Of a stretch of 64,000 nucleotides of DNA, positions 150 through 40,296 are shown in pieces. The stretch comes from Celeribacter litoreus (GTDB lineage: Bacteria; Pseudomonadota; Alphaproteobacteria; Rhodobacterales; Rhodobacteraceae), in the NCBI RefSeq assembly GCF_020165855.1, contig NZ_JAIUFY010000014.1, positions 310,001 through 374,000 of the forward strand. The letters run 5' to 3'. Each line of letters begins with the position of its first letter. Position 1 is the stretch's first letter. The notes beneath the pieces were generated by a model, which worked only from the letters and a program-made list of their open reading frames with translations, was not told where the DNA came from and searched no databases. The position numbers were made by a program, and so were the translations under genes.

Positions 150-1130
150 ATGCCTATCCCGGCCCCAAATCTCTATCCGCCGTTTAACATCATCCGCCTG
201 AGCCACGTTGTGTTCGGTGTGAAAGACGTCGCGGCGTCCCGCAAATTCTACGTCGATATCCTCGGCCTTCAGGTCACGGATGAAGATGCAGACACCGTTT
301 ACCTGCGCGCTATGGAAGAGCGTGGCCACCACTGCATGGTGCTGCAGAAATCCGACGTGAGCGAAGTAAAATCGCTTTCCTTCAAAGTCTTCTCCGAAGA
401 AGAACTCGACAAAGCCGAAGAGTGGTTCAAATCCAAAGGCCACGCGACGTCTTGGGTTGAGCGTCCGTATCAGGGCCGCACCCTCGCGACTGTCGACAAC
501 TACGGCATGCCGATCGAATTCTATTTCCAGATGGACCGCCTGTCGCCGATCCACCAGAAATACGAACTTTACAAAGGCGTTAAGCCGCTCCGCATCGACC
601 ACTTCAACTGCTACTCGCAGTCCGTGGATGAAAGCGTTGCCTTCTATAACGAAATCGGCTTCCGCGTGACGGAATACACCGAGGACGAAGAGAGCGGAAA
701 ACTCTGGGCAGCATGGACCCACCGCAAGGGCGGCGTGCACGACATCGCCTTCACCAACGGTCTCGGCCCGCGCCTGCACCACACCGCTTTCTGGGTGCCG
801 ACGCCGCTGAACATCATCGACCTGTGCGACCTGATGGCCACCACCGGCTATGTTGCAAACATCGAGCGTGGTCCAGGCCGTCACGGCATCTCCAACGCCT
901 TCTTCCTCTACATTCTGGACCCCGATGGACACCGCATCGAGATCTACTGCTCTGACTACCAGACGGTCGATCCGGATCTCGAAGCGATCAAATGGGACCT
1001 GAAAGACCCGCAGCGCCAGACCCTCTGGGGTGCGCCTGCACCGCGCAGCTGGTTCGAGCACGGCTCCACCTTCGAGGGCGTAGAGCCGAAGGAAAGCACG
1101 CTCGCCGCGACGCCGATCATCGCCCCGTAA
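150..1130 (+). CDS. hpaD: 3,4-dihydroxyphenylacetate 2,3-dioxygenase, type I extradiol (VOC fold)
   Basis: This 326-residue protein has two vicinal-oxygen-chelate repeats and matches the Brevibacterium/Arthrobacter homoprotocatechuate 2,3-dioxygenase type by layout and by its C-terminal extension (DPQRQTLWG, then PRSWFEHGS). Metal ligands are visible as His151 (RIDHFN), His211 (LHHTAF) and Glu264 (HRIEIY); His197 (GGVHDIAF) sits where the second-sphere acid/base His200 of the Brevibacterium enzyme lies. It should open the catechol ring of homoprotocatechuate next to the ring carbon bearing the side chain, giving 5-carboxymethyl-2-hydroxymuconate semialdehyde. The genes after it encode later steps of the same pathway. 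A structurally unrelated enzyme for the same reaction lies at 8205-9065. Other 4-substituted catechols remain possible substrates. Confidence 0.88.
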   Translation: MPIPAPNLYPPFNIIRLSHVVFGVKDVAASRKFYVDILGLQVTDEDADTVYLRAMEERGHHCMVLQKSDVSEVKSLSFKVFSEEELDKAEEWFKSKGHATSWVERPYQGRTLATVDNYGMPIEFYFQMDRLSPIHQKYELYKGVKPLRIDHFNCYSQSVDESVAFYNEIGFRVTEYTEDEESGKLWAAWTHRKGGVHDIAFTNGLGPRLHHTAFWVPTPLNIIDLCDLMATTGYVANIERGPGRHGISNAFFLYILDPDGHRIEIYCSDYQTVDPDLEAIKWDLKDPQRQTLWGAPAPRSWFEHGSTFEGVEPKESTLAATPIIAP

Positions 1131-1149
1131 GGCGCTGACACCAAACACC

Positions 1150-1176
1150 GGGGCAGGCGCGCCAAGTGCCTGTCCC
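1150..1176. other. Intercistronic hairpin
   Basis: A 9-bp stem, GGGGCAGGC (1150-1158) with GCCTGTCCC (1168-1176, one G-U pair), lies in the 79-base gap between the dioxygenase and the aldehyde dehydrogenase. No T-tract follows, so read-through is likely and the element may protect or process the transcript. Confidence 0.5.
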
Positions 1177-1209
1177 TCACTTGCAAGACCTGTTTTCGAG
1201 GACATCCCA

Positions 1210-2658
1210 ATGCTCAAAGACCCGACACTTATGAAAGAGGCTGCCCTTGTTGGCGCCGAGTGGATCGCCGCTGGCGACGACGGGATCGCGGTCACCAATC
1301 CGGCCACGGGCGACGTGATCGGTCATGTTCCGCGCCTCGGCGCAAAAGAGACCGAAGCTGCCATTGCCGCTGCTGAAGTGGCACAAAAGGACTGGGCTGC
1401 CAAAACCGCGAAAGAGCGCTCCGTAATTTTGCGCCGCTGGTATGATCTCATGGTGGAAAACGCCGACGATCTGGCGGAAATCCTGACACTCGAACAGGGT
1501 AAACCTCTGGCCGAAGCCAAAGGCGAAATCCTTTACGGCGCGTCCTTTATCGAATGGTTCGCCGAAGAAGCCCGCCGTGTCTACGGTGACGTCATTCCGG
1601 GCCACGCCGCTGACAAACGCATCGTTGTCGTTAAACAGCCGATTGGTGTTGTTGCTGCGATCACCCCGTGGAACTTCCCCAACGCCATGATCACCCGCAA
1701 GGCCGGTCCGGCGCTTGCAGCGGGCTGTTCCATCGTTCTCAAACCGGCTGGCCAAACGCCGTTCTCCGCCATCGCTCTCGCGGTTCTGGCTCAGCGCGCC
1801 GGTCTGCCGGATGGTCTCTTCTCTGTTCTCACCGGCTCCGCCCGTGAGATCGGCGGCGTCATGACCAGCTCCGATGTCGTCCGCAAGCTGACGTTCACCG
1901 GTTCGACCGAGGTTGGCGTGGAACTCATGCGCCAATGTGCGCCGACGGTGAAAAAGCTCGCACTCGAACTCGGCGGTAACGCACCGTTTATCGTGTTCGA
2001 CGATGCCGATCTCGACGAAGCCGTCGAGGGCGCGATTGTGTCCAAGTTCCGCAACAACGGTCAGACCTGCGTTTGCGCGAACCGCATCTATGTTCAATCC
2101 GCCGTCTACGACGAATTTGCCGAGAAACTTGGCAAGCGTCTCTCGACCCTCAAAGTCGGCGACGGCATGGACTCTGATACGATTTTTGGCCCGCTGATCG
2201 ACGAAAATGCGGTCTCCAAAGTGCAAGAGCACATCACCGACGCGACCAGCAAAGGCGCAACGGTGGTGCAGGGCGGCAAGCCCCACGCGCTTGGCGGTCT
2301 GTTCTTTGAGCCGACCGTGATCAAGGGCGTGACCCAGGAGATGGCCGTGGCGACCGAAGAAACCTTTGGTCCCGTCGCACCGCTCTTCAAATTCGAAACA
2401 GATGCCGATGTCGTGGCCATGTCCAACGACACAGAGTTCGGCCTCGCCTCCTACTTCTACACCCGCGATCTCGCTCGGGCGTGGAAAGTGGGCGAGCAGC
2501 TCGAATACGGCATGGTCGGTATCAACACCGGTCTCATCTCTACTGCCGAAGCTCCCTTCGGCGGGATCAAATCCTCGGGTCTGGGCCGCGAAGGCTCCAA
2601 GTACGGCATCGAGGAATTCGTTGAAATCAAATATCTCTGCTTCGGCGGGATCGTCTGA
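1210..2658 (+). CDS. gabD: Succinate-semialdehyde dehydrogenase
   Basis: A 482-residue aldehyde dehydrogenase of the GabD type. The Rossmann loop GSTEVG (about 231-236), general-base Glu253 in LELGGNAP and nucleophilic Cys287 in NNGQTCVC are all present, and the C-terminus carries the usual FGGIKSSGLGREG. It oxidises succinic semialdehyde to succinate. In homoprotocatechuate degradation HpaI releases pyruvate and succinic semialdehyde, so the enzyme links the pathway to the TCA cycle. Its sequence is closer to GabD than to HpaE, so the semialdehyde dehydrogenase acting right after ring cleavage must be elsewhere, perhaps the truncated gene at the window start. Confidence 0.88.
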   Translation: MLKDPTLMKEAALVGAEWIAAGDDGIAVTNPATGDVIGHVPRLGAKETEAAIAAAEVAQKDWAAKTAKERSVILRRWYDLMVENADDLAEILTLEQGKPLAEAKGEILYGASFIEWFAEEARRVYGDVIPGHAADKRIVVVKQPIGVVAAITPWNFPNAMITRKAGPALAAGCSIVLKPAGQTPFSAIALAVLAQRAGLPDGLFSVLTGSAREIGGVMTSSDVVRKLTFTGSTEVGVELMRQCAPTVKKLALELGGNAPFIVFDDADLDEAVEGAIVSKFRNNGQTCVCANRIYVQSAVYDEFAEKLGKRLSTLKVGDGMDSDTIFGPLIDENAVSKVQEHITDATSKGATVVQGGKPHALGGLFFEPTVIKGVTQEMAVATEETFGPVAPLFKFETDADVVAMSNDTEFGLASYFYTRDLARAWKVGEQLEYGMVGINTGLISTAEAPFGGIKSSGLGREGSKYGIEEFVEIKYLCFGGIV

Positions 2659-2670
2659 GGAGGACGCCCT

Positions 2671-3546
2671 ATGAAATCCATTCCAGCCCGCATTGCCGCA
2701 TTCCACGCCAATGGTGCCGACCGCTACGGTGTCGTGACTGACGCCGGCATCATCGACATGACGCCGGAATACGGCAGCCGTTTCCCCACGCTGCAAGACG
2801 TGGTCGAGGCCGGTGCACTCGAAGAGGTGCTCAAATCCTCTGAAGGCCGCGCGCCGACCTACCGCGAAGAGGATGTGACCTACCTCATCCCGATCGCGAA
2901 ACCGGAAAAGCTGATCTGTATCGGCGTGAACTTCCCGGATCGCAACGCGGAATACAAAGACGGCACCACGGACGCGAAATCCTATCCGTCGATGTTCATC
3001 CGCTTCCCGCGCTCCTTCACTGGCCACAACGGCAACATGGTGCGCCCGCCGGAGAGCGAGCAGCTTGATTACGAAGGCGAAGTCACCATTGTCATCGGCA
3101 AAAGCGGTCGCCGCATTGCCAAAGAAGACGCCTATGACCACATCGCCGCGCTGACGCTTTGTAACGAAGGCACGATCCGTGATTGGGTCCGCCACGCGAA
3201 ATTCAACGTCACGCAGGGCAAGAACTGGGATAGCACCGGCTCCATCGGTCCGTGGCTCGTGCCGTTCCGCTCCGCAGACCAGCTCGACGATATCGAACTG
3301 ACCACCCGCGTGAATGGCGAAGTGCGTCAGCAGGATCGCACCTCGCGCATGATGTATGACTTCCGCTACATCGTGAACTACGTCTCCACCTACTGCACGC
3401 TCGTGCCGGGCGACGTCATCGTTTGCGGCACGCCGACGGGTGCAGGCGCACGCTTTGATCCGCCGATCTGGCTCAAGCCGGGTGACGTGGTCGAAGTTGA
3501 AGCCGAAGGCATCGGCATCCTGCGCAACGGTGTGGAGGACGAGTGA
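2671..3546 (+). CDS. hpaG: FAH-family 2-hydroxyhepta-2,4-diene-1,7-dioate isomerase / OPET decarboxylase
   Basis: A 291-residue protein with the fumarylacetoacetate-hydrolase fold. The metal-binding Glu pair is Glu135/Glu137 (DYEGE), and the glycine-rich C-terminal core (VCGTPTGAG, LKPGDVVEVE) is intact. By position between gabD and hpaH it should decarboxylate 5-oxopent-3-ene-1,2,5-tricarboxylate and isomerise the diene product. The usual third ligand in an N-D motif appears as Asn-Glu (Glu166), a conservative change. It starts 12 bases after the gabD stop, and its TGA overlaps the next ATG. Other FAH-family hydrolases look alike, so the exact reaction rests on the neighbours. Confidence 0.78.
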   Translation: MKSIPARIAAFHANGADRYGVVTDAGIIDMTPEYGSRFPTLQDVVEAGALEEVLKSSEGRAPTYREEDVTYLIPIAKPEKLICIGVNFPDRNAEYKDGTTDAKSYPSMFIRFPRSFTGHNGNMVRPPESEQLDYEGEVTIVIGKSGRRIAKEDAYDHIAALTLCNEGTIRDWVRHAKFNVTQGKNWDSTGSIGPWLVPFRSADQLDDIELTTRVNGEVRQQDRTSRMMYDFRYIVNYVSTYCTLVPGDVIVCGTPTGAGARFDPPIWLKPGDVVEVEAEGIGILRNGVEDE

Positions 3547-4346
3547 TGCTCGCCCAAACCGACATCGAAACCGCTGCAGCCGCGCTTCTCGCGGCTGAGG
3601 AGACCCGTGAACAGATCGGTCTTCTGTCGCTGAAACATCCGGAAATCACGCTGGATGATGCCTATGCGATCCAATCTGCGCAAATGGCACAGAAACTGGC
3701 GCAAGGCCGCGAGATCATCGGCTGGAAGATCGGCCTTACCTCGAAGGTGATGCAGGACGCACTCGGGATCACGACGCCGGACAGCGGCGTGATCTACGAC
3801 GACATGGATTTTGCGGACGGCTGCACCGTGCCCGCCACCCGCTTTATCCAACCGCGCATCGAGGCCGAGATCGCCTTTGTCATGAAAGCGCCGCTTGAGG
3901 GCAAAGTGACGCGTGAAGAGGTGCTGGCGGCGACGGATTTCGTCGCGCCTGCCATCGAAATCCTCGACACCCGCATCCTGCGTGCCGATCCGGAAACCGG
4001 CAAGACGCGCAAGATTTTCGACACCGTCTCTGACAATGCCGCAAACGGTGGCATCGTTCTCGGCCCGCAGAAACACGCGCCTGAGGCGTTTGATTTGCGC
4101 TGGGTCGGGGCGATCCTGACGAAGAACGACGAAGTGGTCGCCACGGGGCTCGGCGCGGCTGTGTTGAACGATCCTGTCATGGGCATCGTCTGGCTGTCCG
4201 AGCGCATGGGCCAATACGGTCAGCGGATCGAAGCAGGGCAGGTGGTTCTCGCCGGTTCCTTCATCGCACCGATCGAGTGCCCGTCGGGAACGAAGATCGA
4301 AGCCGACTACGGTCCGTTCGGCACCGTGTCCGTCAATTTCGAATAA
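3546..4346 (+). CDS. hpaH: 2-oxo-hept-3-ene-1,7-dioate hydratase
   Basis: A 266-residue member of the vinylpyruvate hydratase family (MhpD/HpaH/XylJ). Recognisable stretches are GWKIGLTSKVMQ, RIEAEIAFV (metal-ligand region) and NGGIVLGP. It adds water to 2-oxo-hept-3-ene-1,7-dioate, giving the 2,4-dihydroxy substrate of HpaI. The ATG at 3546 shares one base with the upstream TGA (TGATG); an in-frame GTG at 3543 directly precedes it but is less likely as start. The next gene begins ten bases after the stop. The length is normal for HpaH. Confidence 0.9.
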   Translation: MLAQTDIETAAAALLAAEETREQIGLLSLKHPEITLDDAYAIQSAQMAQKLAQGREIIGWKIGLTSKVMQDALGITTPDSGVIYDDMDFADGCTVPATRFIQPRIEAEIAFVMKAPLEGKVTREEVLAATDFVAPAIEILDTRILRADPETGKTRKIFDTVSDNAANGGIVLGPQKHAPEAFDLRWVGAILTKNDEVVATGLGAAVLNDPVMGIVWLSERMGQYGQRIEAGQVVLAGSFIAPIECPSGTKIEADYGPFGTVSVNFE

Positions 4347-4356
4347 GGGAAAGCAC

Positions 4357-5118
4357 ATGCCTGCACCGAAAAACACTTTCAAAGCCCGTCTTAAGGCGGG
4401 CGATGTCCAGATCGGTCTCTGGCTGGGTCTGGGCGATCCGGCTGCGACGGAACTGGCGTCCGGTATCGGCTTCGACTGGCTCATCATTGATGGAGAGCAC
4501 GGCCCCAACGGGTTGATCGAAGTGCTGAGCCAACTGCGCGCTGCCGCGGACAAGACCCAGATGGTTGTGCGCACCCGCGACGACAACCGCGCCGAGATCA
4601 AACAGATGCTCGATGCCGGCGCGCAGACGCTCCTCGTGCCGATGATCGAGAGCGGTGATCAGGCCGCCGAGGTCGTCCGCTCCATGAAATACCCGCCGAT
4701 GGGTGTGCGGGGTGTTGGCGCGGCTCTGGCCCGTGCCTCTGCCTTTAACGCGATCCCCGATTATCTTCAGACGGCAAACGACGAGGTCTGCGTCCTCGTT
4801 CAGGTCGAGAGCATGGCGGGCGTCGACGCGCTCGACGCGATTCTCGCGGTCGAGGGGGTTGATGGCGTGTTTGTCGGTCCGGCCGATCTCGCAGCCGACA
4901 TGGGCTACCTGGGACAACCTGGCGCACCCGAGGTGCAAGAGGTTGTGGTGAGCACACTCAAGCGCATCAAGGCCGCTGGTAAAGCCGCCGGAATTCTGAC
5001 GTCGGATCAGAAGCTTGCGCAAGAATATCGCGAACTCGGTGTCGAATTCCTCGCCGTCGGGTCCGATGTGGGCGTCCTGCGGGCGGGCCTTGTGGGCCTC
5101 AAAGCCAAGTTTTCCTGA
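4357..5118 (+). CDS. hpaI: 4-hydroxy-2-oxoheptane-1,7-dioate aldolase
   Basis: A 253-residue class II pyruvate aldolase closely resembling E. coli HpaI, with shared stretches such as QIGLWLGL, IDGEHGPN, YPPMGVRGVGSALARAS-type sequence and VDGVFVGPADL. The catalytic base is His48, the pyruvate-binding Arg is Arg72, and the metal ligands are Glu151 and Asp177. It cleaves 4-hydroxy-2-oxoheptanedioate into pyruvate and succinic semialdehyde, the latter being the substrate of the gabD product. It is the last gene of the first ring-cleavage run; a hairpin and a probable operator separate it from the TRAP genes. Confidence 0.92.
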   Translation: MPAPKNTFKARLKAGDVQIGLWLGLGDPAATELASGIGFDWLIIDGEHGPNGLIEVLSQLRAAADKTQMVVRTRDDNRAEIKQMLDAGAQTLLVPMIESGDQAAEVVRSMKYPPMGVRGVGAALARASAFNAIPDYLQTANDEVCVLVQVESMAGVDALDAILAVEGVDGVFVGPADLAADMGYLGQPGAPEVQEVVVSTLKRIKAAGKAAGILTSDQKLAQEYRELGVEFLAVGSDVGVLRAGLVGLKAKFS

Positions 5119-5134
5119 CGTCACAGTGAACTCT

Positions 5135-5163
5135 GTGGGGCGGGCGAGACTTGCTTGTCCCAC
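5135..5163. other. Long intercistronic hairpin after hpaI
   Basis: Bases 5135-5163 fold into a 13-bp stem containing several G-U pairs (outer GTGGG with CCCAC) around a 3-nt loop. There is no T-run. The element sits immediately before a TTAACATGTTAA palindrome and may end or process the hpaI transcript ahead of a separately controlled TRAP operon. The many G-U pairs make it meaningful only in the plus-strand RNA. Confidence 0.45.
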
Positions 5164-5177
5164 AATTAACATGTTAA
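5164..5177. promoter_or_regulatory. Candidate operator AATTAACATGTTAA
   Basis: AATTAACATGTTAA contains the perfect 12-bp palindrome TTAACATGTTAA (5166-5177) and lies 97 bases before the TRAP dctP start. Close copies occur at 8172-8185, 34363-34377 and 40284-40296, all in promoter regions of homoprotocatechuate-module genes. The likely binder is the HpaR-like MarR protein (34410-34952); the GntR protein at 38702-39400 is the alternative. Confidence 0.55.
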
Positions 5178-5273
5178 CTTAATCGCGAAGATTGGGGCCG
5201 TGTCAGTTGCTTCGGAGGCCATCGACACGAACTTTCCCCGGACTTTGCATCATACACTCTTGGGAGGATTACC

Positions 5274-6299
5274 ATGAAGATGACGAAACGTGCCTTTCTC
5301 GCAGGGACCGCATTGGCGGCCTCGCTTATCGGCTCCAACGCTGCGTTTGCCGAAACCGAGCTCGTGCTCTCCAGCTGGCTGCCGCCGCGCCACCCGCTCG
5401 TGATCGGCGCGATCAAGCCGTGGGCCGAAAAGGTGGAGGAAGCCACTGAAGGCCGCGTGACCGTTCGCGTTCTCGCCAAGCCGCTTGGCGCTCCGCCGGC
5501 GCACTTCGACATGGCGCGCGACGGCGTGGCAGACATCACCTATGGTCTGCACAGCTTTACCAGTGACGACCGTTTCCTGCGCTCCCGTGTGGGCCAGTTC
5601 TCGTTCCTCGGCGATGACGCCGTTGAGACCTCCAGCAACTTCTGGACCGTCTACACCGAACAGCTCGACGCTGCTGCCGAACACGAAGGCACGCATCTTC
5701 TGGGCCTCTTCACCCACGGTCCGGGTGTTCTCCTGTCCAAAGATCGCCACTTCTCCACTCCTGACGATTTCAGCGGCTTCAAAGTCCGCACGCCGGGTGG
5801 CTATCCGGCCGATCTGATGAGCGGTCTGGGTGCGACGACCCTCTTCATGTCCTCTGGCGAAGTTTACGAAAAACTGACCCGCGGCGTGATCGACGGTCTT
5901 TGCATGGCGATGGACTCTGTGCGTGCGTTCAAGCTCGACAAGCACATCACCGACGTGATGACCGTTCCGGGCGGCCTCTACAACACCTCATGGTTCCTCG
6001 TGATGAACGAAGGCAAGTGGGACTCCATCGATGCTGCTGACCAAGAGGCCATCATGTCCGTTTCCGGCGTGGCCTTCTCTGAACTCGCTGGTCAGGCATG
6101 GAACGACGCGGATGCCACCGGTTATGACGCCACCGGTTCCGCCGACATCACCGTCTACGAAGCCGACGCTGCCGTGCTCGAGGCCATTCAGGCCGTTGCC
6201 AGCCCGCTGGAGCAGGCTTGGGTCGAGGCTGTTGCTGGCCAAGGCTTTGACGGCGCAGCCGCTCTTGCTGAAATGCAGACCGCGAAACCGGCACAATGA
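5274..6299 (+). CDS. TRAP transporter solute-binding protein (DctP family)
   Basis: A 341-residue protein with a cleavable signal peptide (MKMTKRAFLAGTALAASLIG, ending near AAFA) followed by a DctP/TAXI-like binding fold; the segment FKVRTPGG is typical of the ligand-binding region with its conserved arginine. It captures an organic acid in the periplasm for the membrane subunits encoded next. It has a strong ribosome site (TTGGGAGG) before the ATG. Its place between hpaI and the class III hpaD suggests a hydroxylated phenylacetate or related aromatic acid as ligand, which is inference from context. Confidence 0.9.
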   Translation: MKMTKRAFLAGTALAASLIGSNAAFAETELVLSSWLPPRHPLVIGAIKPWAEKVEEATEGRVTVRVLAKPLGAPPAHFDMARDGVADITYGLHSFTSDDRFLRSRVGQFSFLGDDAVETSSNFWTVYTEQLDAAAEHEGTHLLGLFTHGPGVLLSKDRHFSTPDDFSGFKVRTPGGYPADLMSGLGATTLFMSSGEVYEKLTRGVIDGLCMAMDSVRAFKLDKHITDVMTVPGGLYNTSWFLVMNEGKWDSIDAADQEAIMSVSGVAFSELAGQAWNDADATGYDATGSADITVYEADAAVLEAIQAVASPLEQAWVEAVAGQGFDGAAALAEMQTAKPAQ

Positions 6300-6796
6300 C
6301 CGGTTTCAATGGCACCTTCGCGATGCCCCTTCGGGGGCTTCGCTTTCTCGTCGCGCGCGTGCTGCCGGGGCTGAGTGCTGCACTCATCCTGATGATGGTA
6401 GCAGTGACGGTGGTCGATGTGATCGGACGCTATGTGTTTGATTCACCTTTGCCGGGGGCCTTTGAGCTGACGCAGATCCTGCTTGCGGATCTCGTGCTCG
6501 CCGCTCTGCCGATCACCACGTTCAAGGGCAGCCATGTCGAAGTCGACTTGCTCAGCCACCTTTGGTCGCCGCGGACGAACCGGCTCGCCGGAATGTTCGG
6601 AGCCTCGGTCATGGCCATCGTTTTCTTTGTTCTGAGCTGGAACGTCGGCGTTCACGGTCTCAAACTCATGGAAGATGGCGCTGTGACCAACGATCTCGCG
6701 CTTCCGATCTGGCCTGCCGCCGCGCTTGGCGCGCTTACCTATGTGCTCAGCGGCATTGTCTCGCTGGTCCACGAAGACGTCCGTCGGGAGTTCTGA
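6296..6796 (+). CDS. TRAP transporter small membrane subunit (DctQ family)
   Basis: A 166-residue membrane protein with about four hydrophobic segments and the family pattern VDVIGRYVF...LPGAFELTQILL near residues 41-66. It starts inside the dctP stop (ATGA at 6296-6299), so translation is coupled. It forms the membrane complex with the large DctM subunit and serves sodium-driven uptake of the ligand held by the preceding binding protein. Confidence 0.9.
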   Translation: MTGFNGTFAMPLRGLRFLVARVLPGLSAALILMMVAVTVVDVIGRYVFDSPLPGAFELTQILLADLVLAALPITTFKGSHVEVDLLSHLWSPRTNRLAGMFGASVMAIVFFVLSWNVGVHGLKLMEDGAVTNDLALPIWPAAALGALTYVLSGIVSLVHEDVRREF

Positions 6797-6797
6797 T

Positions 6798-8111
6798 ATG
6801 CTTGAACCGTTAATCGCAACCGCGCTGCTTCTCATGCTCGCGGTCTTTCGGGTGCCGATTGCCATCGCGATGATCGTCGTGGGCTCTGTCGGCTTTGCCC
6901 TGCTGCGCGGCACCTCGGCCTCTCTGACGATGCTCTCGACCACCGCGTTTGACACGGTGTTCTCCTATTCGCTCTCCGTGATCCCGCTGTTTATCTTTAT
7001 GGGCAACCTCTTGGCGCACTCCGGTGTGGCCTCCGGTCTGTTCTCGGCCACCCAGCGCCTCGTGCGCAAGATGCCGGGCGGTCTCGCTATGGCGGCGGTT
7101 CTGTCCTGTGGCGGGTTCTCGGCTGTGTCCGGTTCCTCGCTCGCGACGGCGGCCACGATGTCCAAAGTTGCTATGCCGTCGCTGCGCAAGTTCGGCTATT
7201 CCGACAGCCTGTCGTCGGGGGCGATTGCAGCGGGCGGGACGCTCGGCATTCTCATTCCGCCGTCTGTGATCCTGATCATCTACGGCATCCTGACCGAGAG
7301 CGATATCGGCCTTCTGTTCCTCGCGGGGATCATTCCGGGTCTGATCGGTCTCTTGGGCTATGTGCTCGCTGTCTGGGCCGCCGTTTTGGTGAACCCGTCG
7401 CTCGCACCGAAAGAATACGATGTCGATGATCACCCTGTCGAAGGTCTCTACGGTGTGATCCTCTCGATTGCCCTCTTTGCTTTCATCATGATCGGCATCT
7501 ATGGCGGGTTCTTCACCCCGATCGAAGCCGCAGGGATGGGCGCGGGTATGGCGCTCTTGATGGTGGTCGTGACCGGTCACGCGAAACTGCCGGAAATCTG
7601 GCAGTCGCTGATGGAAACGGCAGAGAGCACTGCAATGATCTTTCTCGTGGTCATCGGGGCAGAGGTGTTCTCGAACTACATCAACCTCGCGGGTCTGCCG
7701 GACGAGCTGGCCGGATTTGTCGACGGGCTCGACGTCAACGCTTGGGTTGTCATGGCGATGATTATTGCAATCTATCTGGTCCTCGGCACCGTGCTCGAAA
7801 GCCTGTCGATGATCCTGTTGACCGTGCCGATCTTCTACCCGCTGATGTACCAACTCGATTTCGGTCTCGATATTCTCTACGATCCGGAATACGCGTTGAT
7901 TTGGTTCGGGATTATCGTGGTTGTTGTCACCGAGGTCTCGTTGATCACACCGCCGGTCGGGATGAACGTTTTCGTGCTGAAAGCCACCTTGCCGGACGTA
8001 TCACTGAAGACGATCTTCAAGGGGATTCTGCCGTTCTGGATTTCAGATATTCTGCGACTGATCCTGTTGATCGCATTCCCGACGATTTCCTTGTGGCTCG
8101 TCGCCGGATAA
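6798..8111 (+). CDS. TRAP transporter large permease subunit (DctM family)
   Basis: A 437-residue, strongly hydrophobic protein with about twelve membrane segments. Family hallmarks include PLFIFMGNLLAHSG, the GTLGILIPPSVILIIYG segment and LITPPVGMNVFVLK near the C-terminus. The ATG at 6798 lies one base after the dctQ stop; an in-frame start further upstream would run through dctQ and is unlikely. This is the ion-coupled transport channel of the TRAP system. Confidence 0.93.
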   Translation: MLEPLIATALLLMLAVFRVPIAIAMIVVGSVGFALLRGTSASLTMLSTTAFDTVFSYSLSVIPLFIFMGNLLAHSGVASGLFSATQRLVRKMPGGLAMAAVLSCGGFSAVSGSSLATAATMSKVAMPSLRKFGYSDSLSSGAIAAGGTLGILIPPSVILIIYGILTESDIGLLFLAGIIPGLIGLLGYVLAVWAAVLVNPSLAPKEYDVDDHPVEGLYGVILSIALFAFIMIGIYGGFFTPIEAAGMGAGMALLMVVVTGHAKLPEIWQSLMETAESTAMIFLVVIGAEVFSNYINLAGLPDELAGFVDGLDVNAWVVMAMIIAIYLVLGTVLESLSMILLTVPIFYPLMYQLDFGLDILYDPEYALIWFGIIVVVVTEVSLITPPVGMNVFVLKATLPDVSLKTIFKGILPFWISDILRLILLIAFPTISLWLVAG

Positions 8112-8123
8112 CACGACTTCTCT

Positions 8124-8159
8124 CCGCCAGATTGATCTCGATCAAAGATTATCTGGCGG
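8124..8159. other. Nested hairpin between dctM and hpaD
   Basis: CCGCCAGA (8124-8131) pairs with TCTGGCGG (8152-8159), extended by T8132/A8151. The loop contains a second perfect palindrome, TGATCTCGATCA (8132-8143). The structure begins 12 bases after the dctM stop and may end the TRAP transcript, although no T-run follows directly; the inner palindrome could also be a protein site. Confidence 0.45.
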
Positions 8160-8171
8160 GGGTTGCTATTT

Positions 8172-8185
8172 AATTAACATGTTCA
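8172..8185. promoter_or_regulatory. Candidate operator AATTAACATGTTCA
   Basis: AATTAACATGTTCA differs by one base from the site before the TRAP operon. It lies 19 bases upstream of the class III hpaD start, just before the GGGAGG ribosome site, so a bound protein could block transcription or early elongation. Confidence 0.55.
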
Positions 8186-8204
8186 CCAAATTTGGGAGGT
8201 AACC

Positions 8205-9065
8205 ATGGGTGAGATCGTAATGGCCGCGAAGGTCACGCACGTGCCAACGATGGTCATGTCCGAGCTGGACGGTCCTTTGAAAGGCGTCCGCCAGTCGGCC
8301 ATCGACGGGCACCGCGAGCTGGGCCGTCGCGCCCGTGAAGCTGGCGCAGACACCTTTGTCGTGCTCGACACGCACTGGCTCGTCAACGCAGCCTATCACA
8401 TCAACGCGAATTACAACTTCAAAGGTATGTTCACCTCGCATGAATTCCCGCAATTCATCAAAGACATGCCCTACGAATATGAAGGCAATGCGCCGCTCGG
8501 CAATCTGATTGCGGAAACCGCGCAGGCTAACGGCACCTATACGCTGAGCCACCAGGTCGACAGCCTTGATCTCGAATACGGCACCCTCGTGCCGATGCGC
8601 TATATGAACATGGATCACGACGAGTCCCTGAAAGTGGTTTCCGTCGCCGCCATGTGCACCGTGCACTCGCTCGCACAGTCCCGCAATCTGGGCGCGTCCA
8701 TTGCCGAAGCCATCAAGAAATCCGACAGCAAGGTCGCACTCATCGCGTCCGGCTCGCTCAGCCACCAGATCTGGCCGAACGACATCTATGCGGAGAACAA
8801 CGGCACCTTCACCATTTCGTCCAAGTTCAACGAGGTGGTCGACCGCCGCGTGCTCGAACTGTGGCAGAACGGTGAGCATGAGCTGTTCCTCGAAATGCTG
8901 CCGGACTACGCCAAATACTGCGACGGCGAAGGCGACATGCACGACACGATCATGCTCTACGGCGCGCTTGGCTGGGACAAATACAAAGGCAAGGCAGAGG
9001 TCGTGACCGACTACTTCCCGTCTTCGGGTACCGGTCAGGTGAACGTGTTCTTCCCGCTCGACTAA
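8205..9065 (+). CDS. hpaD: 3,4-dihydroxyphenylacetate 2,3-dioxygenase, class III extradiol (LigB fold)
   Basis: This 286-residue protein is strikingly like E. coli HpaD: shared blocks include KVTHVPTM, RQSAIDGHREL, DTHWLVNAAYHIN, LEYGTLVPMRYMN, ASGSLSH and SSGTGQVN...FPL. Putative iron ligands His12 (THVP) and His57 (DTHW) are in place. It catalyses ring opening of homoprotocatechuate, the same reaction assigned to the VOC-type enzyme at 150-1130, though the two folds are unrelated. It forms a monocistronic unit with a candidate operator upstream and a strong intrinsic terminator downstream. Its substrate could have diverged from that of the first enzyme. Confidence 0.92.
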   Translation: MGEIVMAAKVTHVPTMVMSELDGPLKGVRQSAIDGHRELGRRAREAGADTFVVLDTHWLVNAAYHINANYNFKGMFTSHEFPQFIKDMPYEYEGNAPLGNLIAETAQANGTYTLSHQVDSLDLEYGTLVPMRYMNMDHDESLKVVSVAAMCTVHSLAQSRNLGASIAEAIKKSDSKVALIASGSLSHQIWPNDIYAENNGTFTISSKFNEVVDRRVLELWQNGEHELFLEMLPDYAKYCDGEGDMHDTIMLYGALGWDKYKGKAEVVTDYFPSSGTGQVNVFFPLD

Positions 9066-9091: not shown

Positions 9092-9122
9092 AAAAGCCCC
9101 GCGAAGATTTCGCGGGGCTTTT
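9092..9122. terminator. Strong bidirectional intrinsic terminator
   Basis: A perfect 14-bp stem (9092-9105 with 9109-9122) has a GC core GCCCCGCG and a 3-nt loop. It is flanked by A-runs on the left and T-runs on the right, so it can work in both directions. It separates plus-strand hpaD from the convergent AraC gene. Confidence 0.92.
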
Positions 9123-9174: not shown

Positions 9175-10131
9175 TTATCCGATGACCCGAAGGTAATCTT
9201 TCGGGGTCTGGCCAAACGCCTTGCGGAAGCAGCGGTTGAAATAGGACAGATCCGAGAAACCGGCCTCATAGGCGATGGAGGCAATGAGGTCATCACGACG
9301 ACCGGCGCGGCGATCATCGAGACCGCGCCGCGTATGCTCCAGACGTTTCATCATGAGATATTTCGTCGGCGTCGTGCCTGCGGAGGCAAATCCGCGCTGC
9401 AACTGGCGCGACGACATGCAGAGATCGTCGGCAATGTCTTGCACGCTCAAGTCGGGATTGCGGTAATGCGTGTCGATATAGGCCTGTCCCGCCGTGAGCG
9501 CATGGGAATGGCCCAAATCCGCCTCGATGCCGGCAAAATCCTCACGGCCTGATCGTTCGTGCAGCATTGCACCGAGCAGCCCCATGATGGCCTCGCGCAG
9601 GTAATGATTCGTCGCACCCGCCGCGTCTTCGGTGCCCATGACTTTTGCCAGAACACCATAGAGAGCGATGTTCATCGGGTCGTGGCGCGGCATGCTTAGA
9701 CCTCCACGCAAGAGGTCGTAGCCGAAGCGGGAATGCAGCTCTGCGCGCGGCAGATGGAGCGAAAGCTGGCGGTTGAACTGGCCGAAAAAGGTGAATTCCG
9801 ACGGGGCTGCGCTATCAATCAGAACCATGTCGCCGGGTGTCATCATCACAGAGACATCGTTTTGACTCATCAGCGCTTTTCCCTCTTCCTGAAGGATCAG
9901 GAAGTAGTTCTCGCCGGTGTCCTGTTTGACGGACTGCGAGGTGCGGATCACCTGCTGAACGTCCATGGCCATCCGCCCGAGTTCGAGACCCGCACGGTGT
10001 TCGAGACGGGCGCCCCCCTGCATTTCGCGCTGGTTTTCGGCGGGGCGCACGTCGAAATATCCGCAGACCGATCTCAGGTCTGACACAAAAGCCTCAACAG
10101 GCTGATTGGTGTATTTCGTTGTCTGCTGCAT
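9175..10131 (-). CDS. AraC-family transcriptional regulator
   Basis: A 318-residue regulator with an N-terminal AraC-binding-like sensor domain (roughly 1-200) and a C-terminal double helix-turn-helix (about 220-317; motifs DLSVQDIADDLCMSSRQLQR and IASIAYEAGFSDLSYFNRCFRKAFGQTPKDYL). The overall form resembles the FeaR-type group. It is transcribed divergently from the aldehyde dehydrogenase/GMC oxidoreductase/Liv operon and is probably its substrate-responsive activator. A 16-bp palindrome lies in the shared promoter region. Confidence 0.9.
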   Translation of the reverse strand: MQQTTKYTNQPVEAFVSDLRSVCGYFDVRPAENQREMQGGARLEHRAGLELGRMAMDVQQVIRTSQSVKQDTGENYFLILQEEGKALMSQNDVSVMMTPGDMVLIDSAAPSEFTFFGQFNRQLSLHLPRAELHSRFGYDLLRGGLSMPRHDPMNIALYGVLAKVMGTEDAAGATNHYLREAIMGLLGAMLHERSGREDFAGIEADLGHSHALTAGQAYIDTHYRNPDLSVQDIADDLCMSSRQLQRGFASAGTTPTKYLMMKRLEHTRRGLDDRRAGRRDDLIASIAYEAGFSDLSYFNRCFRKAFGQTPKDYLRVIG

Positions 10132-10290: not shown

Positions 10291-11697
10291 ATGCTGGATT
10301 TCGGCATGACGATCGGCGGCAAATCTGTCGCCGGTGACAAGACTTTCGATGTTTTTAACCCGGCTACCGGAGAACTTGTTGGGCGCGCGCCGAATGCGAC
10401 GCTTGATGATCTCGACCGCGCCGTTGCAAGCGCAAAGGCCGCGTTCCCGGCCTGGGCCGCAAAGCCGGACGCAGAGCGTAAGGCCGCTGTCGCTGCGCTG
10501 GTCGCCGTTCTCGAAGAGAATGCAGAAGCGATTGCCCACACGCTGACGCTTGAGCAGGGGAAACCGCTTGGCGGTCTCGGCTCGCGTTTCGAGCTCGGTG
10601 GAGCTCAGGCATGGACCGGCCACACCGCGTCGCTCGACCTGCCGGTGAAAGTGCTTCAGGACAACAATGAAGGCCGCGTCGAGCTTCACCGCAAGCCGAT
10701 TGGCGTTGTCGGTTCGATCACGCCGTGGAACTGGCCGGTCATGATCGCGATCTGGCACATTATGCCAGCGCTGCGTGCAGGCAATACCGTGGTGATCAAG
10801 CCGTCGCCGTTCACGCCGCTCTCCACGCTGCAGACCGTTGCGCTTCTGTCCGGCAAGCTGCCTGAAGGCGTGCTCAACATCGTGACGTCCGACGACCAAG
10901 TCGCCAATGTTGGTGCAGCCATGTCCTCCCACCCGGACATCGGCAAGATCGTCTTCACCGGTTCCTGCGCCACCGGCGCCCGCGTGATGAAATCCGCAGC
11001 CGACACGATGAAGCGTCTGACCCTCGAGCTTGGCGGCAACGACGCGGGCATCGTCCTGCCGGATTGCGATCCGAACGAGATCGCGGAAAAACTCTTCTGG
11101 GGTGCGTTCATCAACAACGGTCAGACCTGTGCCGCGATGAAGCGTCTATACGTCCACGACGACATTCACGACGCAGTTTGCGATGCTTTTGTCGCCTATG
11201 CGCGCAACGTGAAGATGGGCAACGGTCTTGATGAGGTCAACGTGCTCGGTCCGGTGAACAACCAGATGCAATTCGACAAAGTTGCGAGCCTCGTCGCAGA
11301 TGCCGCCAAAACCGGCAACGTGCTGCTCGGAGGCGCACCGGATGAGGGTCTGTTCTTCCCGATCACGCTCGTCTCCGACCTGCCGGACGACGCGCCGCTC
11401 ATCCACGAAGAACAGTTTGGCCCTGCGCTGCCGATCATCCGTTTCACCGACGTCGAAGAGGCGATTGCCGCCGCAAACGCGAGCGAAAACGGTCTCGGCG
11501 GGTCTGTTTGGTCGAAAGACGTTGAGAAAGCCAAGGCACTGGCCCTGCGTCTCGAATGCGGGACGGCGTGGATCAACAGCCATGGCGGTTTGAACCCGGT
11601 CGCTCCGTTCGGCGGTGCGAAAATGTCCGGGATCGGGCGTGAATTCGGTGAAGAGGGTCTCTTCGAGAACACCGAAATTCAGGTCCTGCACATCTGA
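10291..11697 (+). CDS. NAD(P)-dependent aldehyde dehydrogenase
   Basis: A 468-residue aldehyde dehydrogenase with general base Glu247 (TLELGGND), nucleophile Cys280 (NNGQTCAA) and the motifs TPWNWPV and FTGSCATG. Gly-Gly-Asn-Asp follows the catalytic Glu, whereas the enzyme at 1210-2658 has Gly-Gly-Asn-Ala. It sits 13 bases before a GMC alcohol dehydrogenase, so the pair probably converts a primary alcohol through an aldehyde to an acid. The substrate cannot be read from the sequence; an arylethanol such as tyrosol or a polyol ether are both compatible. GGGAGG precedes the ATG. Confidence 0.9.
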   Translation: MLDFGMTIGGKSVAGDKTFDVFNPATGELVGRAPNATLDDLDRAVASAKAAFPAWAAKPDAERKAAVAALVAVLEENAEAIAHTLTLEQGKPLGGLGSRFELGGAQAWTGHTASLDLPVKVLQDNNEGRVELHRKPIGVVGSITPWNWPVMIAIWHIMPALRAGNTVVIKPSPFTPLSTLQTVALLSGKLPEGVLNIVTSDDQVANVGAAMSSHPDIGKIVFTGSCATGARVMKSAADTMKRLTLELGGNDAGIVLPDCDPNEIAEKLFWGAFINNGQTCAAMKRLYVHDDIHDAVCDAFVAYARNVKMGNGLDEVNVLGPVNNQMQFDKVASLVADAAKTGNVLLGGAPDEGLFFPITLVSDLPDDAPLIHEEQFGPALPIIRFTDVEEAIAAANASENGLGGSVWSKDVEKAKALALRLECGTAWINSHGGLNPVAPFGGAKMSGIGREFGEEGLFENTEIQVLHI

Positions 11698-11710
11698 AGG
11701 AGAATGAACC

Positions 11711-13315
11711 ATGAGCAATGAATTTGACTACATCGTTGTTGGCGGTGGCTCCTCTGGCTGTGTCATGGCGTCCCGCCTGTCGGAAGACAGCTCCAAGCGC
11801 GTGCTTCTGATCGAAAGCGGCCATCGCGACAGCCATCCGTATATCCACATCCCGTCGACCTTCTTCAAAGTCATCGAAAAGGGCCGCGACATTGTTCCTT
11901 ATGTGGGCGAGCGCGACGAGGGCGTGAACGGGCGTGAATCCGTTGTGCTTCAGGGCCACGTCATTGGCGGCGGCTCCTCTGTGAACGCGATGATCTACAT
12001 CCGCGGCCACGCCAACGACTACAATCAGTGGGCGCAACTCGGCAACAAAGGCTGGTCCTACGACGACGTGCTTCCGGCGTTCCGCGATGTCGAGAACAAC
12101 ATGGTGTTCTCCGATGGCTTCCACGGCACGGACGGTGAACTGCGCGTGTCCGAGGCCCCGAACAAACACCCGCTATCGCGCGCCTTCATCCGCGCGGGTC
12201 AGGAAGTCGGTCTGCCGTATAACCCCGACTTCAACGGCGCAATCCAAGAGGGCGTGGGCTTCTACCAGTCCACGACCCACAACGGCCGTCGCTGGTCCTC
12301 CGCGCAGGCGTTCCTGCGTAAGGCCGAAAAGCGCAAGAACCTGACGATCATGACGCAGACCCGCGTCGCCAAGATCCTCTTCGAGGGCAAGCGCGCGACA
12401 GGCGTGCAGCTCGAAGACGGGCGCAAAATGACCGCACGCGGCGAGATCGTTCTCTGCGCAGGCGCCATCGAGACACCGCGTCTGATGCAACTGTCCGGCG
12501 TCGGTCCGGCCGAGCATCTGCGTGAGCACGGGATTGAGGTTGTGGCTGATCTGCCGGGCGTGGGCTCGAACTATCAGGACCACATGGAAAGCACCGTTCA
12601 GGGCGAAACCTATGAGCCGATCTCGCTTTACCGCGAAGACAAAGGTCTCAAGGCCGTGCGTCACATGCTGCGTTATCTGCTCACCAACACCGGGCTTGTG
12701 GCCTCCAACGTTGTGGAATGCGGCGGCTTTGCCGATGTGTCTGATGCCGGTCAGCCGGATGTGCAATTCCACTGCATTCCCTTCATGGCGGGGTGGGTCG
12801 ACCGTGCACCGATTGAGGCCCACGGCTTCCAGATCGCGCCGTGCTTCCTGCGTCCGAAATCGCGCGGCTCCGTGCGTCTGCGGTCCTCGAACCCGACGGA
12901 CAAGTCGCTCTTCGATGCGGCGACCTTCCGCGATAGCGACGATCTCGAAGTTCTAACCCGTGGCGTGCTCAAGGCCATCGACATCATGAACGCGCCTGCG
13001 ATGCAGAAATTCATCAAACGTCGTGCCCTGCCCGAAGAGGGTTTGGAGAAAGACATGGATGCGCTGCGCGACTACGTGCGCCAGACCTGCAAAACCGTGT
13101 TCCACCCGAGCGGCACCGCCAAAATGGGTGTGGAAAGCGACAAGATGTCGGTCGTCGACAACGAGTTGCGCGTGCGCGGTCTGGAGGGCCTTCGCGTGGC
13201 TGACGCATCTGTCATGCCGACGCTCGTGTCCGGCAACACCAATGCTCCGGTGATCATGATTGCGGAACGCTGTTCCCGCTTCATCACCGGCAAGGAAACC
13301 GTTGTGGCCGCCTAA
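11711..13315 (+). CDS. GMC-family FAD alcohol dehydrogenase (choline-dehydrogenase-like)
   Basis: A 534-residue flavoprotein with an N-terminal FAD site (IVVGGGSSG, about 9-17), the GMC signature QGHVIGGGSSVNAMIYIRG near residue 80-100, and a C-terminal HPSGTAKMG with the catalytic His, followed by DASVMPTLVSGNTNAPV with the usual Asn. Family members oxidise choline, benzyl alcohol, long-chain or polyethylene-glycol alcohols. It lacks a signal peptide. The downstream importer and upstream aldehyde dehydrogenase indicate a catabolic role; choline itself is less likely because no betaine genes are nearby. Confidence 0.92.
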   Translation: MSNEFDYIVVGGGSSGCVMASRLSEDSSKRVLLIESGHRDSHPYIHIPSTFFKVIEKGRDIVPYVGERDEGVNGRESVVLQGHVIGGGSSVNAMIYIRGHANDYNQWAQLGNKGWSYDDVLPAFRDVENNMVFSDGFHGTDGELRVSEAPNKHPLSRAFIRAGQEVGLPYNPDFNGAIQEGVGFYQSTTHNGRRWSSAQAFLRKAEKRKNLTIMTQTRVAKILFEGKRATGVQLEDGRKMTARGEIVLCAGAIETPRLMQLSGVGPAEHLREHGIEVVADLPGVGSNYQDHMESTVQGETYEPISLYREDKGLKAVRHMLRYLLTNTGLVASNVVECGGFADVSDAGQPDVQFHCIPFMAGWVDRAPIEAHGFQIAPCFLRPKSRGSVRLRSSNPTDKSLFDAATFRDSDDLEVLTRGVLKAIDIMNAPAMQKFIKRRALPEEGLEKDMDALRDYVRQTCKTVFHPSGTAKMGVESDKMSVVDNELRVRGLEGLRVADASVMPTLVSGNTNAPVIMIAERCSRFITGKETVVAA

Positions 13316-34409: not shown

Positions 34410-34952
34410 ATGGGCCAGATCATCGATTCCGACAAACTCACGGTTTCCAGTGATGCGCTTATTGTAGATGGCAGTGACCTGCAGTTCCGCGAGATGCTCC
34501 ACAATCTCTTGGCCTTCTCGGCGCGGCTCGAACAAATCAGGGGTGGTTTTGCGAACCTCATCGGGCTGTCCGGTCCGCAATACACCATCCTCATCACGGT
34601 GCAGCAGCTCTCTCAATTGGGGGACGTCGGTGTCGGTCATGTTGCGGAACATCTGGCGCTCACACCTGCTTTTGTCACCAAAGAGACCAAGAACCTGATC
34701 AAACTCGGTGTTCTTGAAAAACAGCCGGACCCTAACGACCTGCGCCGTGTGAAGCTCAAGGTCACGGCTTTCGGTGAAACCAAGCTGCAATGCCTGCCCA
34801 AAGTGCAGCAGCAGGTGAATGACCAACTGTTCAAAGCCGTCACTCAGGAAAACTTTGCCATGCTCCATGCCCTGTCGGCGGACTTGCGCAACGATGCGGA
34901 AAAGGCCCTGAACCTGCTGAAGTTCCTCGCGCTTGAGGAGGAGTCAGCATGA
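34410..34952 (+). CDS. hpaR: MarR-family regulator, HpaR-like
   Basis: A 180-residue winged-helix regulator with a MarR core (about 35-150; SGPQYTILITVQQL, VGHVAEHLALTPAFVTKETKNL as recognition region, KQPDPNDLRRVKL as wing). HpaR in enterobacteria represses hpa genes and its own promoter and is relieved by hydroxyphenylacetates. It is the first gene of an operon with hpaC and hpaB, and its promoter holds two palindromes shared with other hpa-module promoters. The stop overlaps the hpaC start (ATGA). Confidence 0.82.
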   Translation: MGQIIDSDKLTVSSDALIVDGSDLQFREMLHNLLAFSARLEQIRGGFANLIGLSGPQYTILITVQQLSQLGDVGVGHVAEHLALTPAFVTKETKNLIKLGVLEKQPDPNDLRRVKLKVTAFGETKLQCLPKVQQQVNDQLFKAVTQENFAMLHALSADLRNDAEKALNLLKFLALEEESA

Positions 34953-35473
34953 CGACGGCGTTCGATCCGAAAGCATTTCGCAACGCATTGGGCAAGTTCC
35001 CGACAGGTGTGTGTATTGTCACGACGCGGGTGGACGATGAGCCGCTCGGAATGACGATGAGTTCCTTTAACTCTCTGTCGCTCGATCCGGCACTGGTGCT
35101 GTTCTCCATTGATAAGCGCGCCCTGAGCCTGCCGTTGTGGGAGCGGGCAGAAGGCTATGCGATCCATGTTCTTGCGGAAGAGCAGCAAGCGCTCTCCAAC
35201 CGTTTTGCTGGCCGCGGCACAGACAAGTGGGCGGGCCTTCATGCCGAGGCCGGCCTTTACGGTGTGCCTCTTCTGAGTGGTGTGGCCGCGCGGTTCGAAT
35301 GTGCGCGCCATGTCATTCACGACGCTGGCGATCACCGCCTTTTCATTGCCGAAGTCGAACGTTTCACAGCTCATCCCGACCGTAAACCGCTGCTCTTTGC
35401 GGGCGGGCGCTATGGGCAAATTCAAAAACAAACGGATGAGGCGCCGATTTGGCCGCTCTCCATCCACTACTAA
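34949..35473 (+). CDS. hpaC: Flavin reductase, HpaC-like component of the two-component monooxygenase
   Basis: A 174-residue flavin reductase of the FMN-binding split-barrel family: FRNALGKFPTGVCIVTTR at the N-terminus, MSSFNSLSLDPALVLFSI, and a terminal region with AGGRYGQIQ. It reduces free FAD or FMN with NAD(P)H and hands it to HpaB. It is coupled to hpaR by a four-base overlap and followed by hpaB after 20 bases. Confidence 0.9.
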   Translation: MTTAFDPKAFRNALGKFPTGVCIVTTRVDDEPLGMTMSSFNSLSLDPALVLFSIDKRALSLPLWERAEGYAIHVLAEEQQALSNRFAGRGTDKWAGLHAEAGLYGVPLLSGVAARFECARHVIHDAGDHRLFIAEVERFTAHPDRKPLLFAGGRYGQIQKQTDEAPIWPLSIHY

Positions 35474-35493
35474 TCCAACAGGAGATCCTCCCC

Positions 35494-40283: not shown

Positions 40284-40296
40284 AAAAACATGTTAA
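40284..40296. promoter_or_regulatory. Candidate operator AAAAACATGTTAA
   Basis: This site carries the right half and centre of the AATTAACATGTTAA element (ACATGTTAA intact; left half AAAAAC). It lies 13 bases before the binding-protein ATG, beside the ribosome site AGGGAA. Confidence 0.45.

Follow-up and report, generated by a model that had tools for sequence, protein, structure and literature searches.

Two predicted homoprotocatechuate dioxygenases of unrelated fold in one locus

We analyzed a stretch of 64,000 nucleotides from Celeribacter litoreus (Rhodobacteraceae; contig NZ_JAIUFY010000014.1, positions 310,001 to 374,000), here called the window, which encodes two predicted homoprotocatechuate (HPC) 2,3-dioxygenases: hpaD-1, of the VOC (type I) fold, and hpaD-2, of the LigB (class III) fold, referred to below as VOC and LigB. 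The two genes are 7 kb apart in a cluster with the order hpaR (divergent), hpaF, hpaE, VOC, sad, an FAH-family gene, hpaH, hpaI, dctPQM, and LigB, the last of which converges on a feaR-like gene followed by genes for an aldehyde dehydrogenase (ALDH) and a GMC oxidoreductase (Table 1). An earlier note, made from the letters of the window alone, had proposed that two HPC dioxygenases of unrelated fold share this pathway block, with one hpaH and one hpaI between them. The sequence evidence agrees: both open reading frames are present, both products exceed curated profile cut-offs and fall into different solved families, and the list of open reading frames holds a single hpaH and a single hpaI between the two genes.

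The 326-residue VOC product scores 419 bits against TIGR02295 HpaD (cut-off, 321), and its nearest solved relatives are the HPC dioxygenases of Arthrobacter globiformis (PDB 1f1r) and Brevibacterium fuscum (1f1x). Along the aligned 1f1r chain, H155, H214, E267, and H200 correspond to H151, H211, E264, and H197 of the window VOC, which we take to be the 2-His-1-Glu metal site and the second-sphere His, with the same numbering in B. fuscum; the metal site and second-sphere His described in the earlier note are thus in place. N157, W192, R243, H248, Y257, and R292 likewise correspond to N153, W189, R240, H245, Y254, and R289. The window VOC agrees with the two actinobacterial enzymes in predicted fold and at 12 of the 13 positions compared, differing at position 293, which is R in 1f1r and Q in the window. 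We know of no LigB partner for either actinobacterial enzyme.

The 286-residue LigB product scores 459 bits against TIGR02298 HpaD_Fe (cut-off, 316) and is 56% identical to Escherichia coli HpaD, a likeness that had been noticed before; its closest structure is the Acinetobacter baumannii enzyme 8iq8 (54% identity in the structure alignment). The predicted VOC structure (pLDDT 74, with a poor C terminus) has 381 PDB matches, and every one listed (the best 50 of 381) is an HPC dioxygenase from one of these two actinobacteria. The predicted LigB structure (pLDDT 83, pTM 0.88) has 33 matches at E ≤0.001, all of them LigB-type dioxygenases or their structural kin, such as MEMO1. Among the matches listed (best 50 each) the two models have no PDB entry in common, and as far as these tests show, the enzymes are analogous rather than homologous.

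Distribution of the pair

We surveyed 394 Rhodobacteraceae genomes, about one per genus, with counts and statistics that carry no correction for relatedness. LigB exceeded its cut-off in 45 genomes and VOC in 121; 32 genomes carry both, 13 only LigB, and 89 only VOC. Co-occurrence is well above the 13.8 genomes expected by hand arithmetic (odds ratio, 7.2; Fisher P = 3e-9, or 7e-9 without the window genome). The 32 pair genomes comprise that of the window, 27 with both genes at a single locus, and 4 with the genes on different contigs. In 25 of the 27 single-locus pairs, LigB is followed by VOC across a gap of 11 to 135 bp (the exceptions are L117 and L140). Within the window genus, LigB occurs in 4 of 20 genomes, and the same four carry a near-identical VOC whose start lies about 8 kb from that of LigB; the VOCs of the three congeners are 95.7 to 96.0% identical to that of the window. 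Cultured carriers of the pair belong to Phaeobacter, Leisingera, and Pelagimonas.

We also examined the best 80 of at least 588 named loci, some of them cut by contig ends. LigB and VOC are adjacent in 38 and both present but apart in 5, six have two LigB genes, and those with one LigB divide into 15 with HpaE and 16 without HpaE in view. In a phylum sample of 398 genomes, LigB exceeded the cut-off in 22 and VOC in 26, with both in 6, of which 3 are outside the family. Two genomes (G588 and G752, at loci L215 and L217) have LigB some 340 to 420 kb from a VOC-type hpa cluster on the same contig.

The earlier note held that organisms usually carry one of the two enzymes, which holds for 102 of the 134 sampled family genomes that carry either, but the pair is nonetheless recurrent and positively associated, with both enzymes in 32 genomes. 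That note also envisaged that a survey might find the pair common and already described; it is common in part (32 of 394 genomes), and we found no description of the VOC/LigB pair in the open-licence literature searched. We rejected the notion that the pair is unique to this organism, as it recurs in family genomes and named loci. Judged from sequence, it is a real, recurrent arrangement of two known enzyme families.

Operators and regulation

The cluster contains HpaR-type operators before dctP and before LigB (Table 1), and the type fits the HpaR site TTAA-N4-TTAA published for E. coli (PMC7180172). The dctP sequence, TTAACATGTTAA, is also found without mismatch before hpaF, outside the window. 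The LigB operator, TTAACATGTTCA, ends 19 bp from the start codon, and a site as good would arise in the 93-bp gap before LigB with a chance of 0.0004 (20,000 mononucleotide shuffles). The ten-base core TTAACATGTT occurs six times in the 3.66-Mb genome, compared with once for a reversed control. Four of these six sites belong to hpaF, dctP, LigB, and an ABC-transporter gene near hpaBC-like genes, and the remaining two are on contigs C9 (the window's contig) and C11. The operator allows the extent of the HpaR regulon to be predicted cleanly. The core at the ABC-transporter gene occupies positions 40287 to 40296 of the window, 13 bp 5′ of the start codon; this gene encodes a binding protein and lies downstream of the hpaBC-like genes. 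Across 84 loci (27 paired, 38 VOC, 18 LigB, and the window), sites within one mismatch are present in 55, with 60 sites found against 0.75 expected from mononucleotide shuffles.

Among nine named loci whose LigB is of the window type (75 to 96% identity to the window LigB), seven have a site with no more than two mismatches, 30 to 37 bp before the start. Three of these seven (L238, L240, and L244) have no other hpa-cluster gene in view, and in a fourth, Martelella mediterranea L241, hpaH and hpaI are about 9 kb away. In L241, LigB directly follows genes for an HpaB-like protein (758 of 885 bits) and an HpaC/RutF-like reductase (best match RutF, 188 of 255 bits; next HpaC, 162 of 206). Operator-bearing LigB genes with no other hpa gene in view, together with a LigB placed behind HpaB- and HpaC-like genes, suggest that LigB acts on HPC and that the two dioxygenases are induced jointly. 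In L237 and L239, LigB follows dctM by 71 and 46 bp.

Separate control of the LigB gene had been proposed from its own operator and terminator. LigB does have an operator of its own and a terminator-like hairpin between it and the convergent regulator gene (absent from the output of a consensus promoter and terminator scan, which gave no excess over shuffles), but the operator is the HpaR-type palindrome common to the main operon and dctPQM. We therefore rejected separate regulation as originally meant; an operator of the same type at LigB, the main operon, and dctPQM points instead to joint induction, and we infer that HpaR would bind the predicted sites and that both genes would be induced.

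Conservation and substrate

Active-site conservation was assessed in two alignments. The LigB alignment has 46 rows (the 45 family genomes above the TIGR02298 cut-off plus G037), and H12, H57, Y125, H187, and E242 are kept in all 46, window included; a metal site of His12, His57, and a Glu, along with Tyr125 and a His in the second sphere, is named for the Pseudomonas aeruginosa enzyme in PMC5291488. The VOC alignment has 66 rows: the window, the 27 paired loci, 4 loci with LigB on another contig, a second copy (L151, genome G180), and 33 loci from VOC-only genomes (32 of the 89, drawn largely from among the higher scores); a VOC-like gene in G077 (43% identity) fell below the filter and was left out. 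Counting a row as solo when there is no LigB at that locus gives 28 paired and 38 solo rows. The 13 compared positions, including the Q that replaces R293 of 1f1r, are identical across all 66. The largest frequency gap between paired and solo rows at any residue is 0.45 for VOC and 0.60 for LigB, the latter presumably stemming from a divergent all-solo clade described below.

These alignments bear on the possibility that the enzymes divide substrates, one acting on HPC and the other on a substituted or side-chain analogue (e.g., hydroxytyrosol or dopamine type), with both products entering the same lower pathway. The window LigB adjoins FeaR-like, ALDH, and GMC genes, and operons with two LigB genes exist (6 of the best 80 named loci). 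Titles of PDB structures indicate that the VOC-type HPC dioxygenase binds 4-nitrocatechol and that variants bind 4-sulfonylcatechol; 4-nitrocatechol is said in PMC7118221 to be accepted by the VOC-type enzyme, while PMC5291488 reports no detectable activity of the P. aeruginosa enzyme on it. Against such a division, the 13 compared positions are the same in paired and solo VOCs, LigB and the main operon have the same operator type, and among 27 paired, 18 LigB, and 38 VOC loci no peripheral gene family clearly marks the paired ones, the nearest being ABC-transporter genes (6 to 8 of 27, 1 of 18, and 0 to 2 of 38, respectively). The distinct substrate suggested in the earlier note finds no support at the 13 VOC positions compared, and we regard substrate partition as unlikely.

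Selection and descent

Across six pairs of four congeners, the ratio of nonsynonymous to synonymous substitution rates (dN/dS) is 0.024 to 0.052 for LigB and 0.036 to 0.063 for VOC, and by this measure both enzymes are under purifying selection. The window LigB has a branch of 0.44, compared with 0.1 for its nearest relative, L117, which could signal that one of the two has lost or changed its HPC dioxygenase activity, but both retain their metal ligands and have low dN/dS, and we consider this very improbable.

The pair could also be a residue of gene transfer or a matter of dosage, LigB being a small mobile unit with its own operator that lands in hpa clusters and adds capacity with no lasting division of labor. 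On the VOC tree, the paired label requires 20 changes (shuffled mean, about 21.5), a scatter that argues against a "paired" VOC lineage and would suit such a history, as would operator-bearing LigB genes with no other hpa gene in view. A cluster from another class of the phylum (G770, L214) is of the same tenor, joining HpaE-VOC-FAH-HpaH, 72 to 83% identical to the window, to LigB-HpaI-Sad at 52 to 62%. On the LigB tree, by contrast, the paired label is somewhat clustered (11 changes versus 14.4, with 19 to 24 of 500 shuffles as low), and a divergent clade of seven rows is all solo. Together with the positive association of the pair, the LigB-VOC order fixed in 25 of 27 loci, and purifying selection on both genes in four congeners, this leaves transfer or dosage, in our view, a somewhat poorer candidate than substrate partition.

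From HpaE to LigB, the gene order of the window is also that of Martelella alba and Roseibium aggregatum, and their VOCs are 83 and 87% identical to that of the window, compared with 70 to 80% for most family members, which suggests that the block was transferred. In a member of the window genus (G007), positions 8470 to 9322 of L050 hold an incomplete hpaE and about 37 VOC codons that run, by eye, into livM-like sequence; with no LigB match in this genome, the hpa block seems to have been lost there. In the G770 cluster, the gene between the two parts is of AraC type by eye. In Ruegeria pomeroyi DSS-3, which lacks the pair, LigB occupies the single place. Two other Ruegeria loci (L250, 10435 to 11274; L256, 10900 to 11739) have, after the usual LigB, a second, divergent LigB that is 45% identical to the window LigB; at residues 154 and 246 of the latter's numbering it has Ser and Asn, respectively, in place of the two His of window-type LigB. 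The L250 copy exceeds the TIGR02298 cut-off (345 bits versus 316). Three reference rows (L195, L199, and L202), translated in a wrong frame, were excluded from this residue comparison.

Neighboring genes

Of the HPC meta-cleavage pathway, HpaE and HpaH exceed their cut-offs, and the HpaF-, HpaG-, and HpaI-like proteins score below theirs (Table 1). The gene after VOC was considered as HpaE and rejected, because the HpaE model gives it only 400 of 638 bits and the true HpaE sits upstream. E. coli HpaG is a two-domain protein; the gene in the HpaG position here has a single FAH match, and a comparable FAH gene is clustered in 69 of 83 relatives' loci. The ALDH and GMC genes are a possible feeder of 4-hydroxyphenylacetate-type acids, and an ALDH-GMC-FeaR module also lies beside the HpaB/HpaC-like genes and LigB of M. 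mediterranea L241. The window's HpaB-like protein scores 346 bits to HpaB-1, below the NCBIfam cut-off of 480, and PF03241 exceeds its Pfam cut-off; the accompanying reductase matches FerA best (165 of 260 bits; HpaC, 52 of 206). A gene for a pyridoxal phosphate-dependent decarboxylase recurs in hpa clusters (L176, 9635 to 11029, and similar; 9 of 27 paired, 4 of 18 LigB, and 13 of 38 VOC loci) and is a possible feeder from aromatic amino acids.

Table 1. Features of the hpa locus; positions are those of the window unless a locus (L040) is named
Feature	Position	Strand	Basis
HpaR repressor gene	L040 13561-14043, just upstream of window	divergent	TIGR02337, 158 bits (cut-off 121)
HpaF-like isomerase	just upstream of window		72 of 215 bits, match to 117-residue part
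HpaE	L040 14548-16059, just upstream of window		762 bits (cut-off 638)
VOC-fold (type I) HPC 2,3-dioxygenase, hpaD-1 (predicted)	150-1130	+	TIGR02295; PDB 1f1r/1f1x relatives; active-site residues
Succinate-semialdehyde dehydrogenase (sad)	1210-2658	+	TIGR01780, 726 bits (cut-off 646)
FAH-family protein in HpaG (decarboxylase) position	2671-3546	+	PF01557, single FAH match; TIGR02303, 181 bits (below cut-off 276)
hpaH hydratase	3543-4346	+	TIGR02312, 370 bits (cut-off 351.5)
hpaI-like aldolase	4357-5118	+	TIGR02311, 343 bits (below cut-off 369)
HpaR-type operator TTAACATGTTAA before dctP	5166-5177		exact palindrome; exact in three congeners
DctP-DctQ-DctM TRAP transporter genes	5274-8111	+	DctP, PF03480; Q and M named from reading-frame order and translation, conserved in congeners
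HpaR-type operator TTAACATGTTCA before LigB	8174-8185		one mismatch, in outer TTAA; one-mismatch site in three congeners
LigB-fold (class III) HPC 2,3-dioxygenase, hpaD-2 (predicted)	8205-9065	+	TIGR02298; PDB 8iq8
Terminator-like hairpin	9092-9122		14-bp arms
AraC-family regulator, FeaR-like	9175-10131	-	PRK09685 FeaR, 192 bits (slightly below cut-off 199)
Aldehyde dehydrogenase and GMC oxidoreductase	10291-13315	+	profile matches
HpaC-like flavin reductase and HpaB-like 4-hydroxyphenylacetate 3-monooxygenase	34949-36981	+	profile matches

Comparison with known systems

The E. coli hpa operon resembles the window in having HpaR, HpaE, and HpaF-, HpaH-, and HpaI-type genes, a LigB-type HpaD, and a TTAA-N4-TTAA HpaR site (PMC7180172), but it has one dioxygenase, whereas in the window VOC fills the HpaD place and LigB follows transporter genes. 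The DHPAO enzymes of P. aeruginosa and A. baumannii (8iq8) are of the same kind as the window LigB and have its catalytic residues; the accessible text on them mentions no VOC partner. Another parallel is plasmid pP97_b of Phaeobacter porticola P97, which has hpaR, an isomerase gene, hpaE, a LigB hpaD, a VOC hpaD, and a succinate-semialdehyde dehydrogenase gene in a row; both dioxygenase genes are annotated hpaD, so the tandem is visible in database annotation. There the pair is adjacent in one operon, unlike the window, where LigB is 7 kb from VOC with its own operator. For one Rhodobacteraceae genome, PMC5064897 names two genes of the LigB family and several for catechol 2,3-dioxygenases but does not connect them as a pair.

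A probable single pathway with two isoenzymes

We put at roughly two in three the probability that this locus encodes a single meta-cleavage pathway for HPC in which two analogous enzymes catalyze the same ring-opening reaction, controlled by HpaR and made together as isoenzymes. Both enzymes are probably HPC dioxygenases that are induced together. Given that the pair recurs in relatives under what appears to be the same switch, it is most likely that either can take the other's place, not that they serve two distinct pathways. Each would convert HPC to 5-carboxymethyl-2-hydroxymuconate semialdehyde, and HpaR would repress both genes until 4-hydroxyphenylacetate (HPA) or HPC is present.

For why two enzymes are kept, we tentatively prefer a hedge against metal shortage and oxidation, at well under even odds. 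An easily oxidized, Fe(II)-dependent LigB with high kcat would be backed by a VOC tolerant of other metals, which would keep HPC, an autoxidizing catechol, from accumulating when iron is scarce or oxidized. The would-be model is found in Fe- and Mn-type isoenzyme pairs such as the superoxide dismutases. Published differences in metal use and turnover suggest the idea. According to PMC5291488, the LigB-kind enzyme of P. aeruginosa has a kcat of 62 to 63/s and a Km of 58 to 67 μM, works with Fe(II) but with neither Mn nor Co, and loses activity on storage unless protected, while the B. fuscum VOC enzyme has a kcat of 10/s and a Km of 15 μM and accepts Mn or Co in place of Fe, and that of A. globiformis uses Mn (kcat, 23). 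The metal or oxygen niche raised in the earlier note is therefore compatible with some published enzymology.

Several observations weigh against the two-isoenzyme reading or the hedge attached to it. Each enzyme stands alone in many genomes (the 89 VOC-only and 13 LigB-only among 394), and outside the family VOC is present in 3 of 18 LigB genomes of the phylum sample, with both in one cluster only in G770. Operator sites are found in the window and in 14 of 27 paired loci, the latter proportionally fewer than in VOC (28 of 38) or LigB (12 of 18) loci, and two of the nine window-type loci, L237 and L239, have no site near LigB. The operons with two LigB genes (the 6 of the best 80 named loci counted above) have no VOC in view, and two of them, from Ruegeria, have a divergent LigB in the VOC slot; such operons speak for two enzymes as such and not for two metals, which weakens the hedge. 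In PMC5291488, moreover, a Klebsiella enzyme of the LigB cluster is reported with Mg(II), and kcat/Km is similar in the two kinds (about 1 versus 0.67 and 3.33 per μM per s).

In its broadest form, and slightly more doubtful than the hedge itself, the proposal is that Roseobacter-type bacteria hold two unrelated folds under one repressor as insurance against metal limitation and oxidation, an operon-encoded isoenzyme pair of analogous proteins. Analogous enzymes are usually thought to replace one another, yet in these bacteria the two are retained together time and again, apparently governed by a common operator. With the cultured carriers in Phaeobacter, Leisingera, and Pelagimonas, one could ask genetically why two folds per reaction persist, and whether the choice of enzyme in the turnover of aromatic carbon by marine bacteria depends on metal supply or oxidative damage.

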